A program made the position numbers and the translations under genes. Positions 12,190-15,791 of a DNA stretch of 64,000 nt are shown one piece after another (within the stretch, counting starts at the first letter, position 1; each line of letters begins with the position of its first letter). Below the pieces are notes generated by a model, which had not been told where the DNA came from, searched no databases, and saw nothing but the letters and a program-made list of their open reading frames with translations. Origin of the DNA: an uncultured Collinsella sp. (GTDB taxonomy: Bacteria; Actinomycetota; Coriobacteriia; Coriobacteriales; Coriobacteriaceae); contig CANNOC010000013.1 in assembly GCA_947507155.1 (NCBI GenBank), positions 1-64,000 on the forward strand, given 5' to 3'.

Positions 12190-13392
12190 ATGCAGATTAC
12201 CTCAGGCCTGCCTGAAGGCTTTAATGCCGGTGCGTACGACATGATTGTTGTCGGCGCCGGTTATGCCGGTGCCGTTTGCGCCCGCCGTCTTGCCGAAACT
12301 ATCGGCTATCGTGTTGCCGTTTTGGAGCGCCGTAGCCACATTGCGGGCAATGCCTTCGACTGCACTGACGAGGCGGGAATCCTGGTCCACGAGTATGGTC
12401 CGCACATCTACCATACCTTTAACGAGCGCGTCCACAATTTCCTGTCGCGCTTTACCAAGTGGACGGACTACCAGCACAAGGTGCTTGCCAACATCAACGG
12501 CACCCTCATGCCCGTGCCTTTTAACCACGCGAGCCTCAAGCTCGCCTTTGGCGACGAGCGCGGCGAGGAGCTGTATCAGAAGCTCGTGGAGACCTTTGGC
12601 AAGGACGTCAAGGTGCCCATCATGGAGCTGCGCAAGAAGAACGACCCGGATCTTGCCGAGGTCGCCGATTACGTCTACGAGAACGTCTTTTTGCATTACA
12701 CCATGAAGCAGTGGGGCCAGACGCCCGACCAGATCGATCCCTCGATCACCGGTCGCGTTCCCGTCTTTGTGGGCGACGATGACCGCTACTTCCCGCAGGC
12801 TCCCTTCCAGGGCATGCCGCAGGACGGCTATACCGCGCTGTTCGAGCACATGCTCGACCACGATCTGATTGATGTGTTCTGCGACGTGGACGCCCGCGAC
12901 CTCTTCGAGATCGACGAGACCACCGTCAAGATCGACGGTAAGGTCTATGGCGGCGAGATCGTCTACACCGGTCCGCTCGACGAGCTGTTCAACCTCGACC
13001 TGGGCGCTCTGCCGTACCGTACGCTCGACATGAAGTTCGAGACGCTCGATATGGACCAGTTCCAGCCCGTGGGCACCGTCAACTACACCACGAGCGAGGA
13101 TTACACGCGTATCACCGAGTTCAAGAACATGACTGGCCAGGTCCTGCCCGGCAAGACCACCATCATGAAGGAGTACTCCAAGGCCTATACGCCCGGCTCG
13201 GGCGAGACGCCGTACTACGCCATTCTTGAGCCCGAGAACCGTGAGCTCTATGAGCGCTATCTTGAGCGCGTTCAGAACCTGACGAACTTCCACCCGGTGG
13301 GTCGCCTGGCCGAGTATCGTTACTACGATATGGATGCCGTTACCAACTCCGCCCTCGATCTTTCGGATGAGATTATCGCCTGCCATGCATAA
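12190..13392 (+). CDS. glf: UDP-galactopyranose mutase
   Basis: A 400-residue flavoenzyme that interconverts UDP-galactopyranose and UDP-galactofuranose, supplying galactofuranose for cell-surface glycans. The N-terminal FAD-binding motif VVGAGYAGAVCARRLAE is followed by ERRSHIAGNAFD and HEYGPHIYHT, both characteristic of Glf; YEN.F..YT.KQWG and YFPQAPFQGMPQDGYT also fit. AAGGAG lies 6 nt before the ATG. The gene overlaps the following glycosyltransferase by 8 nt, indicating translational coupling. Confidence 0.95.
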   Translation: MQITSGLPEGFNAGAYDMIVVGAGYAGAVCARRLAETIGYRVAVLERRSHIAGNAFDCTDEAGILVHEYGPHIYHTFNERVHNFLSRFTKWTDYQHKVLANINGTLMPVPFNHASLKLAFGDERGEELYQKLVETFGKDVKVPIMELRKKNDPDLAEVADYVYENVFLHYTMKQWGQTPDQIDPSITGRVPVFVGDDDRYFPQAPFQGMPQDGYTALFEHMLDHDLIDVFCDVDARDLFEIDETTVKIDGKVYGGEIVYTGPLDELFNLDLGALPYRTLDMKFETLDMDQFQPVGTVNYTTSEDYTRITEFKNMTGQVLPGKTTIMKEYSKAYTPGSGETPYYAILEPENRELYERYLERVQNLTNFHPVGRLAEYRYYDMDAVTNSALDLSDEIIACHA

Positions 13393-14416
13393 AGTCATAT
13401 CATTCGGTATTCCCTCGTATAACGCCGCCAAGGACATGGACCATTGCATCACCTCCATTCTGGAGGGGAGCAATTACGCCACCGATATCGAGATCATCAT
13501 CGTTGATGACGGTTCCAAGGACGAGACGGCGGCCAAGGCCGATGAGTGGGAGACGCGTTACCCCGGAATCATCCGCGCGGTGCATCAGGAGAACGGCGGC
13601 CACGGCATTGCCGTCCTTTCGGGCTTGCGCGAGGCACAGGGCACCTACTACAAAGTTGTCGACTCGGACGACTGGCTCGATGGCGCAGCCCTGTCGACCA
13701 TGCTTTCGATCCTTCGCGGTTTTGAGGAGCGCGACCAGCGCGTCGACCTCTTTATCTCGAACTATGTGTACGAGAAGGTTTACGAGGGTACGCACACCGC
13801 TATTGGCTACAAGTTTGCCCTGCCGCGAAAAAAGATCTTTACCTGGGACCAGATTGGTCATTTCCGTCTGGACCAGAATCTGCTCATGCACAGCCTGTGC
13901 TATCGCACGGATGTGCTGCGCGCGTCCAATCTGCCTATGCCGCCGCACACGTTCTATGTAGACAACATCTACGCCTACGTGCCGCTGCCGCGCTGCAAGA
14001 CCATGTACTACGCCGACATCGACCTCTATCGGTACTTTATCGGTCGCGAGGGCCAGAGCGTCAACGAGGCCACGATGGTCAAGCGTCTGGACCAGCAGTT
14101 CCGCGTGACGCGCATCATGATGGAGTCGTTCCACCTGTACAGCGATGTCGAGTCGTCGCGTCTGCGCTCGTACATGATGGGCTATTTCACCATGATGATG
14201 GCAATCTGCTCGGTGCTTACTAAGCTTTCCGACGAGGATTGTGCCGATGAGCGCCTGAAGACGTTGTGGAGTGATTTAAAGGCCTATGACGAGCGTATGT
14301 ATCGTCGTGCACGCTACGGTGTGGTCGGCTTCTTCACCAATCTGCGCGGTCGTGCCGGTGACAAAACCACACTCGGCCTATACCGTCTTGCCTCAAAGAT
14401 CTTCAAATTCAACTAG
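13385..14416 (+). CDS. family 2 glycosyltransferase
   Basis: A 343-residue GT-A fold glycosyltransferase. The N-terminal domain has SFGIPSYNAAKDM, the nucleotide-binding EIIIVDDGSKDET and the metal-binding VDSDDWLD. The start overlaps the glf stop (ATGCATAA), which favours this ATG over an upstream one inside glf. The C-terminal third is helical and basic, possibly membrane-associated. Coupling with glf suggests transfer of a sugar, perhaps galactofuranose, onto a surface polymer (inference). A fragment resembling its last residues lies inverted about 180 nt downstream. Confidence 0.88.
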   Translation: MHKVISFGIPSYNAAKDMDHCITSILEGSNYATDIEIIIVDDGSKDETAAKADEWETRYPGIIRAVHQENGGHGIAVLSGLREAQGTYYKVVDSDDWLDGAALSTMLSILRGFEERDQRVDLFISNYVYEKVYEGTHTAIGYKFALPRKKIFTWDQIGHFRLDQNLLMHSLCYRTDVLRASNLPMPPHTFYVDNIYAYVPLPRCKTMYYADIDLYRYFIGREGQSVNEATMVKRLDQQFRVTRIMMESFHLYSDVESSRLRSYMMGYFTMMMAICSVLTKLSDEDCADERLKTLWSDLKAYDERMYRRARYGVVGFFTNLRGRAGDKTTLGLYRLASKIFKFN

Positions 14417-14448: not shown

Positions 14449-14558
14449 GGCCCCTTGGCCTTTAGTTTGCTACTGCGAACAGTCCTGCTCGCACGGAAAG
14501 CACATTGAGTGCTTTCCGGCTCGTGCGGAACTTGTATCAAACTAAAGGCCAAGGGGCC
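14449..14558 (+). repeat. structured 3' element A (long inverted repeat with conserved core)
   Basis: The arms 14449-14469 and 14538-14558 are a perfect 21-bp inverted repeat. The apical hairpin is CGGAAAGCAC/GTGCTTTCCG with loop ATTGA. The core (ACAGTCCTG, CTCGCACG, then GGCTCGTGCGGAACT) is almost identical to that of element B at 14653-14777 read on the minus strand, with paired stem changes between copies. It begins 32 nt after the glycosyltransferase stop, in that gene's orientation. No T-run follows. Confidence 0.75.
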
Positions 14559-14562
14559 TCTG

Positions 14563-14625
14563 CTACAAGAATCGATTGTCAGGCTGCCAGAATTTGAAGA
14601 TCTTAGACGCGCGGTACACAGGGGC
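14563..14625 (-). pseudogene. C-terminal remnant of a glycosyltransferase-like gene
   Basis: The minus strand reads VYRASKIFKFWQPDNRFL then stop. This matches the end of the intact glycosyltransferase (LYRLASKIFKFN, stop at 14416), including 15 identical bases (14590-14604 against 14396-14410, inverted). Only about 20 codons remain and the frame upstream shows no further similarity. It looks like the tail of a second, oppositely oriented paralogue, lost except for this scrap between elements A and B. Confidence 0.5.
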
Positions 14626-14652
14626 CTGGGCTGAAAGGGATTTAGTTGAGTA

Positions 14653-14777
14653 GGTTGCCCGGTGGGTCTTGGTTATGTTTGTCGCGAGTTCCGCACGAGC
14701 CGAAGAGCACTTAATGTGCTCTTCGTGCGAGCCAGGACTGTAGAGCAGCAAACATAACCAAGACCCACCGGGCAACC
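14653..14777 (-). repeat. structured 3' element B (long inverted repeat with conserved core)
   Basis: The arms 14653-14681 and 14749-14777 are a perfect 29-bp inverted repeat around an apical hairpin CGAAGAGCAC/GTGCTCTTCG. On the minus strand the core matches element A over about 70 nt. It starts 12 nt after the stop of the minus-strand peptidase gene, the same relation to its upstream gene as element A. Outer arm sequences differ from A, but both inner ends are GTTTG/CAAAC. Confidence 0.75.
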
Positions 14778-14789
14778 GGACGAGTTAGT

Positions 14790-15791
14790 TTACTTCGCGG
14801 CGCCGGGGATGCCGTGGGAGGTTTTAGCGGTTTTGGCTCCGTTTACGATGGCAGCTTCTAGGGCCCTTACTGCGAGCATACCCAGCAGGTCTAGGGGAAC
14901 GGCGGCGCTTGCCTGGGCACCCAGTTTGCCGCTGGCGAGGGTGTAGATGGTGTCGCCGTCGTTGGTGGTGTGTGTGGGGCGGATGGCGTGCGCGTAGGCG
15001 TCTGCGGCCATCTGAGAGACTTTGGTGGCCTGGGCCTTGGTGAGCTCCACATTGGTGACGATGCAGCTGATGGTGGTGTTGGTGCGGTCGAGCGGCATTT
15101 GCATAGATCCGGCGGCGGCAAAGGCGGCGAGCTCCATGTCGACGATCTGGTCGCTATCGGTCGCGGCGCGCATGCCCGCCACCCATTCGCCAGTGGTCGG
15201 GTCGACGACGTTGCCGCAGGCGTTGACCGAGACCACGGCGCCCACCTTGACGGGGCCGAGTGCCACGGCAGCAGCTCCGAGGCCGGCCTTCATGCAGGTG
15301 GCAGGTCCCATGAGTTTGCCTACGGTGGCGCCGGTGCCGGCACCCACATTGCCCTGCTCGAGCGAGGCAGGGGTGTGGTCGAGCGCCTCGCGCACGGCGG
15401 CGATACCGGCCTCAATGTCGGGGCGCACGGTGGGGTCGCCAAAGGCGAGGTCGAAGATGCAGCTGGAGCACACGATAGGCACCTGCGTGGGACCGACGGG
15501 CAAGCCGATGCCGCGGCTCTCAAGCTCGCGGGCGACGCCGCTTGCGGCTTCGAGGCCAAAGGCCGATCCGCCCGAAAGGCAGACGGCGTGGACCTTATCG
15601 ACGGTGTTTTCGGGGCGCAGCAGGTCGGTCTCGCGCGAAGCGGGAGCGCCACCGCGTACGTCAACGCCACCGGTGGCACCCTCGGGCGCCACGATTACGG
15701 TGCAGCCGGTGCCAGCCTCCTCGTCCGTATAGTTGCCAAAGCAAAAGCCATCGACGTTGCAAACATCGATGGCTTCGAGCAGTGTGTCCAT
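14790..15791 (-). CDS. P1/S58-family (DmpA-like) peptidase
   Basis: A 333-residue protein of the DmpA / NylC N-terminal-nucleophile family, whose members self-cleave to expose a catalytic Ser or Thr. The conserved GNVGAGTGATVGK and the RPTHTTNDGDT block near the C-terminus are present. Asn238-Thr239 within RTNTTIS is the likely autocleavage site by analogy with NylC. The ATG at 15791 has AGGAG 5 nt upstream; the frame stays open further up, but that part lies in the maf gene. Likely cytoplasmic aminopeptidase or amide hydrolase, substrate unknown. Confidence 0.85.
   Translation of the reverse strand: MDTLLEAIDVCNVDGFCFGNYTDEEAGTGCTVIVAPEGATGGVDVRGGAPASRETDLLRPENTVDKVHAVCLSGGSAFGLEAASGVARELESRGIGLPVGPTQVPIVCSSCIFDLAFGDPTVRPDIEAGIAAVREALDHTPASLEQGNVGAGTGATVGKLMGPATCMKAGLGAAAVALGPVKVGAVVSVNACGNVVDPTTGEWVAGMRAATDSDQIVDMELAAFAAAGSMQMPLDRTNTTISCIVTNVELTKAQATKVSQMAADAYAHAIRPTHTTNDGDTIYTLASGKLGAQASAAVPLDLLGMLAVRALEAAIVNGAKTAKTSHGIPGAAK

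Follow-up and report, generated by a model that had tools for sequence, protein, structure and literature searches.

The window, the stretch of 64,000 nt analysed here, carries two palindromic elements between converging genes. Element A (14449..14558, plus strand) starts 32 nt past the TAG stop of a family-2 glycosyltransferase gene (13385..14416, plus strand), and element B (14653..14777, minus strand) starts 12 nt past the stop of the converging gene (14790..15791, minus strand), which had no NCBIfam match and whose product we take to be peptidase S58/DmpA-like. The sequences and coordinates of both elements in the earlier note were all correct. In element A, a 5' arm of 25 nt (14449..14473) is joined to the 3' arm (14534..14558) by 21 perfect pairs, a single C·T mismatch and three further pairs, and the arms enclose a conserved core of 60 nt (14474..14533). 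This core contains ACAGTCCTG (14479..14487), which forms the 5' loop end and the 5' strand of helix P2, consists of invariant columns and is conserved order-wide; the variable inner hairpin P4 (14494..14518), CGGAAAGCAC-ATTGA-GTGCTTTCCG; and TGCGGAACT (14524..14532), the 3' strand of P2 including a bulged A, also conserved order-wide. In element B, read on the minus strand, perfect arms of 29 nt (5' arm, 14749..14777; 3' arm, 14653..14681), with 29 pairs, flank a conserved core of 67 nt (14682..14748) with the same invariant ACAGTCCTG (14733..14741), an inner hairpin P4 (14701..14725) and the conserved TGCGGAACT (14687..14695). The inner stems of A and B differ in matched pairs, as had been claimed. 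The folding z-scores were -10.3 for element A and -12.6 for element B, and none of 200 shuffles was equally stable. The gap between the elements also holds, on the minus strand (14573-14640), a remnant encoding APVYRASKIFKFWQPDNRFL, homologous to YRLASKIFKFN, the C-terminus of the glycosyltransferase upstream of A; the remnant, present in all close relatives, places A within an inverted repeat of 21 nt.

Element A used as a DNA query returned about 22 additional places in G000, the 2.22 Mb genome that contains the window, and a covariance model, R1, was built from 22 copies; elements A and B scored 89.3 and 99.7 bits against it. The expectation of the earlier note that related genomes would hold further copies with paired stems was borne out when relatives were searched with R1: G000 contains 27 complete copies and one more truncated at a contig end, and matches were present in 42 of 45 genomes of the genus and in 66 of 150 genomes, from 26 of 77 genera, of the order. 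Copy number was patchy, from 0 to about 36 per genome. Exact core matches with names came from Collinsella, Adlercreutzia, Slackia, Gordonibacter, Parvibacter, Enterorhabdus and Rubneribacter, all of them Coriobacteriia. The sole exact match outside the class, in a Comamonadaceae metagenome-assembled genome, had no arms and was attributed to chance, and a phage origin was rejected as IMG/VR held no exact core match. The window and six other element loci gave no Rfam match above the gathering score, Collinsella-1 included, and only chance miRNA hairpins below that threshold. No description was found in the papers searched by core strings or by palindrome and Collinsella terms, although a large RNA-candidate screen (e.g., PMC8040213) may list the element anonymously. 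The family is numerous, conserved and apparently undescribed in common gut bacteria. One diverged copy (L213, 1345-1446) scored poorly with R1, and further subtypes of the element probably exist.

Every G000 copy followed the same plan, a similar core of 60-70 nt within locus-specific arms of 21-44 bp. The arms (median about 30 bp) were almost perfectly paired and different at each locus. The parts of the core constant across the order are GCTCnnACAGTCCTG on the 5' side and (C/T)GCGGAACT, followed by CGC or GCGC, on the 3' side. Helix P2 pairs AGUCC with GG-A-ACU, leaving the A bulged; below it lies an asymmetric internal loop, CUCnnAC/C (about 6-7 nt vs. 1), and inside it are a short stem, P3, and the perfect variable hairpin P4, which occurs in the matched-pair variants CTCGCACG/GGCTCG, CGCAAGACG/TTTGCG, CTCACGACG/TGTTCG and ATGCAAGACG/TTTGCAT. 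Copies within one genome have loop types in common. Across 22 G000 copies (A1, a fairer basis for pair counts than A2 and A3, which had been fitted to the model), 97.6% of cells were paired and both sides had changed in 18 of 29 pairs; pairing exceeded that of all 500 shuffles and of every slid control. No tag was shared at the arm boundary, where only a first base G (79% of copies) and a T next after the arm (48%) recurred. Comparison of outer arms across loci returned only orthologues and scattered 14-mers. A conserved core within outer arms unrelated between loci had been called the opposite of a MITE, and this description held: the copies have no terminal inverted repeats in common.

Gene context was assigned for 128 copies by a simple codon-usage gene finder, which makes some errors. 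Tandem genes surrounded 91 copies, convergent genes 23 and divergent genes six, with eight unresolved or apparently inside an open reading frame, and the convergent gene ends named in the earlier note were therefore too narrow a setting. Coding sequence was nearer the 5' side in 98 of 121 copies (98 vs. 23, p = 3e-12), and in 22 of the 23 copies at convergent pairs, indicating that the element points out of the gene. It does so in two placements, either in sense orientation after a stop codon, typically 10-20 nt past it, or in antisense orientation just ahead of a start codon. The claim that the elements lie just after a stop and are oriented with that gene was accordingly right for A, B and about half of the family, and wrong for the large antisense class before starts. 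Genes of this class include leuS, cysS, valS, thrB, leuD, lepA and ffh, and valS of G000 has one element on each side. Housekeeping genes were among the genes with an element (leuS, valS, cysS, alaS and nrdD among others). Several genes had one in more than one genus, with arms unrelated between genomes: leuS in G000, G015 and G089; cysS in G018, G032, G039 and G119; alaS in G103 and G113; and a gene that, from its N-terminus, is presumably serA, in G054 and G106. A promoter beside all antisense copies was considered and rejected, an extended -10 motif being present at only 3 of 46. Intrinsic terminators were found after 20% of genes with an element and 15% of others, most genes having none; a terminator role, or replacement of terminators by the element, was not supported. 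In the gap between era and recO, the orientation of the element in G019 was opposite to that in G017 and G039 despite similar inner arms, which looks like an inversion of the core in situ.

The earlier note had read the matched changes in the arms as selection on an RNA or cruciform structure. Mismatches in the arms of 125 copies comprised 63 G·U and 91 A·C (63 to 69 without one fixed A·C position common to 22 copies). The corresponding numbers were 37 and 47 for sense copies and 18 and 33 for antisense copies, and an excess of G·U over A·C was absent in either transcribed orientation. As a control, 38 ordinary terminator-like hairpins from the same loci had 11 G·U to 2 A·C; this set is small, and its difference from the arms gave a Fisher p of 0.003, or 0.017 without the fixed position. 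An excess of G·U is expected under RNA selection and none was found, which weakens that reading. The arms do not behave like an RNA stem.

These counts bear most directly on the possibility that the family is an RNA element at transcript ends, a hairpin of untranslated regions (UTRs) with covarying arms, selected for mRNA stability, processing or the binding of a protein. The element does adjoin coding sequence in presumed UTRs, at the typical 10-20 nt past stops, it lies at leuS between a -10-like element and the Shine-Dalgarno sequence, and its pairing covaries strongly. An RNA stem of 30 bp, though, would put up with single mismatches and should share the G·U excess of the terminators (11 to 2), which neither the sense (37/47) nor the antisense copies (18/33) did; moreover, the 5'-UTR copies are the reverse complement, and a single RNA motif is unfit for both ends. 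We consider this explanation unlikely, though it retains some weight.

The divergence data support the constraint that the earlier note had suggested. Among 16 orthologues of site A with one arm allele, the core diverged by 1.0% and the arms by 0.9-1.0%, compared to 9.8% for the spacer between A and B and 15% for third codon positions. At leuS in 11 genomes, divergence was 0.6% in the core, 5% in the arms and 3-7% in the flanks, and the core at L011 was almost unchanged in 18 genomes. About 24 species had the element fixed at shared sites, with divergence 10-fold below that of the flanks; no empty site was seen at 10 loci in the close clade, and the neighbours of the element were stable in all close genomes. 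Strong purifying selection therefore appears to act on the core, unless the similarity is maintained by recombination between species. Alleles of arm and core were mosaic, which indicates some recombination between species. In the leuS leaders of the close clade, where the promoter was assigned by eye, the element is located between GTTAAC, just past the -10-like TGCTATCAT, and the AAGGAG ribosome-binding site. Element-free leuS leaders (G022, G032, G037, G042 and G043) read TTTTGCTAGAATCTGGAACGTTACTGTTTG...AAGGAGCC-ATG or close to it and had no hairpin, indicating that the element was gained or lost whole, arms included. At the leuS loci L231-L252, the core subtype (CTCGCACG or CGCAAGACG) flipped on both sides together, the arms being unchanged, pointing to conversion between copies or species.

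The same comparisons make it doubtful that the family is a selfish palindrome of the REP or REPIN kind, spread by a transposase and retained at harmless intergenic spots. Such a palindrome would be dispersed and intergenic with a patchy copy number, as was seen (0 to about 36), and loop types common to copies of the same genome, leuS leaders both with and without the element, and RAYT-like Y1 genes in 6 of 10 element-rich vs. 0 of 7 element-poor genomes would fit it. It does not account for locus-specific arms, for sites that are fixed across about 24 species at divergence 10-fold below the flanks, or for the lack of any empty site at 10 loci in the close clade. Nor are the RAYT-like genes tied to the element: none had an adjacent copy, R1 had no match around eight Y1 loci, and the element-rich genomes G019, G103, G113 and G097 were without a Y1 gene. 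The RAYT-like Y1 genes at L281 (2315-3127), L282 (2017-2793), L283 (2039-2839), L285 (2067-2816) and L286 (2085-2849) are single, have no flanking palindromes and encode a C-terminal tail resembling a helix-turn-helix.

Changes in the arms were followed at orthologous sites. Site B had two unrelated arm alleles among close species, a block within both arms of L011 was swapped at once in L091, L096 and L102, and at the L163 site, where the flanks of G000, G002 and G010 were near-identical, the arm pairs were of three unrelated kinds and the cores of two subtypes. L041 carries a snapback copy of element A, in which an exact reverse complement of the 5' half has taken the place of the 3' half; it reads GCTACTGCGA and then the reverse complement of GCTACTGCGAACAGTCCTGC; in L042 and L044, GATAC is matched to GTATC, the mismatch having been mended by copying of one arm. 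Snapback copies and blockwise double changes were thus both present, and judged from sequence they appear to be marks of template switching, which wholesale arm replacement would also fit. Template switching is described to make and keep perfect stems and to produce multibase compensations without G-U intermediates (PMC8794818). With no G·U excess (63 vs. 91; controls, 11 to 2), double changes in blocks and the snapback copy L041, the matched arm changes do not demonstrate RNA selection, and for the arms the earlier choice of RNA or cruciform shifts toward a process at the DNA level. What remains of that interpretation is the core, the further copies, the constraint and the distinction from MITEs and Rfam families. 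At site A, the arms were as conserved as the core, a result not expected from template switching by itself. The L163 copy (1480-1640; G000 C18) lies within an older imperfect inverted repeat, CTTTTTTGAAAATCTTTGGGA / TCCCAAGGTTTTCAAAAAAG, adjoining tRNA genes.

In E. coli, SbcCD cuts palindromic hairpins. No match to SbcD (TIGR00619) was found in eight Collinsella genomes or in one genome of a sister genus, and 13 of 14 control genomes were positive. Some family-free genomes (G025, G027, G044 and G070) also had no SbcD match, and the absence of SbcD is for this reason a permissive condition and not a cause.

Taken together, the element is likely a selected gene-border hairpin. Our preferred explanation in full, held tentatively and with somewhat less than even confidence, is a family of such hairpins in Coriobacteriia whose core is read by a putative factor and whose arms are renewed by template switching. 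The core would be the recognition part, kept by purifying selection through this factor, which may recognise it at the gene border in hairpin or cruciform form. Its most likely role would be to mark or separate transcription units, either after the stop or, as at leuS, between promoter and ribosome-binding site. The long arms would serve only to present the core, and would be created, renewed and kept paired largely by template switching between the arms during replication. In this genus SbcD, the subunit of a hairpin-cleaving nuclease that would normally act against such palindromes, was not detected. Renewal of this kind would explain why the arms are paired yet different at every locus. Whether the core is read as DNA or RNA divides the evidence: location in UTRs favours RNA, and the missing G·U excess and the reversal of orientation between the two ends of a gene favour DNA. 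A more specific version, improbable in our judgment, is a cruciform border system, in which a protein specific to Coriobacteriia would read the core extruded from DNA and act in the direction leading out of the gene, so as to insulate coding regions from their promoters and neighbours, with template switching continually rewriting the arms.

Another candidate origin is insertion of the core into the loops of older perfect terminator hairpins, with the arms as old host stems. The outgroups L052 and L054, which have a perfect hairpin of 18 bp where A lies, and the older imperfect repeat around the element at L163 would fit this origin. It was rejected because the leuS leaders that lack the element contradict it, having no hairpin where the insertion would have taken place; in addition, the arms have no terminator U-tract and were swapped while the flanks stayed, leaving it very improbable. 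Least credible of all are neutral, functionless palindromes whose pairing is maintained by template switching and which are tolerated because SbcCD is absent, since the core is conserved across families at 10-fold below neutral, polarity toward coding sequence is strong and the same genes retain the element, even if leuS arms change at about the flank rate and other long perfect palindromes are present.

The gene-border hairpin was compared with known systems. Integron attC sites fold into a hairpin with an extrahelical base and a variable terminal structure, carry their recombination boxes at the hairpin base and belong to mobile cassettes. The element shares the folded hairpin, the extrahelical base and the variable terminal structure, but its own base is fully variable and its flanking genes are stable housekeeping genes. 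Like an intrinsic terminator, about half of the copies place a GC-rich hairpin soon after a stop; unlike one, the element has no U-tract and no G·U excess, has a conserved core of 60 nt, lies also between promoter and start codon, and coexists with ordinary terminators. REP, BIME and REPIN sequences are palindromes tagged with GTAG or CGTC (PMC3733652). The element resembles them in being a palindrome dispersed in tens of copies between genes and often near gene ends, but it is several times longer, is conserved in its centre and variable in its arms where they have conserved stems with a tag, adjoins no RAYT gene and keeps orthologous sites across genera; neither of the two tags, expected at the foot of a hairpin of 20-40 nt, was found. 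The Collinsella-1 motif (RF01700, PMC2864571) is likewise a candidate structured RNA of Collinsella-like gut bacteria, and the element had no Rfam match. Quasipalindromes corrected by template switching (PMC8794818, PMC7202029) share the multibase compensatory changes and the snapback copies that keep arms perfect; they differ in that the element combines these with a core that is strongly conserved and recurs at many loci. The element is, in sum, a dispersed intergenic palindrome with the usual plan reversed. In it, stem covariation and RNA selection, which are usually equated, come apart: the core appears to be under selection, while the covariation of the stems looks to have been made by DNA replication. 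If a factor that binds the core exists, it would represent a new regulator with a reach across an entire bacterial class.

Other palindromes were seen in the same genomes. At about 3030-3180 of L017 (G000 C14, about 28.5 kb), a palindrome with perfect arms of 29 bp encloses another core (GTCCTCGGACATG ... CGTCCTGCGGAAA) and is perhaps a second family with the same plan. A different repeated perfect palindrome (CCAAAATGCGTCATTTAGGGTC...) occurs in G030 (L156, 1423-1481; L165, 1414-1450), and similar ones are present in L148 and L209.
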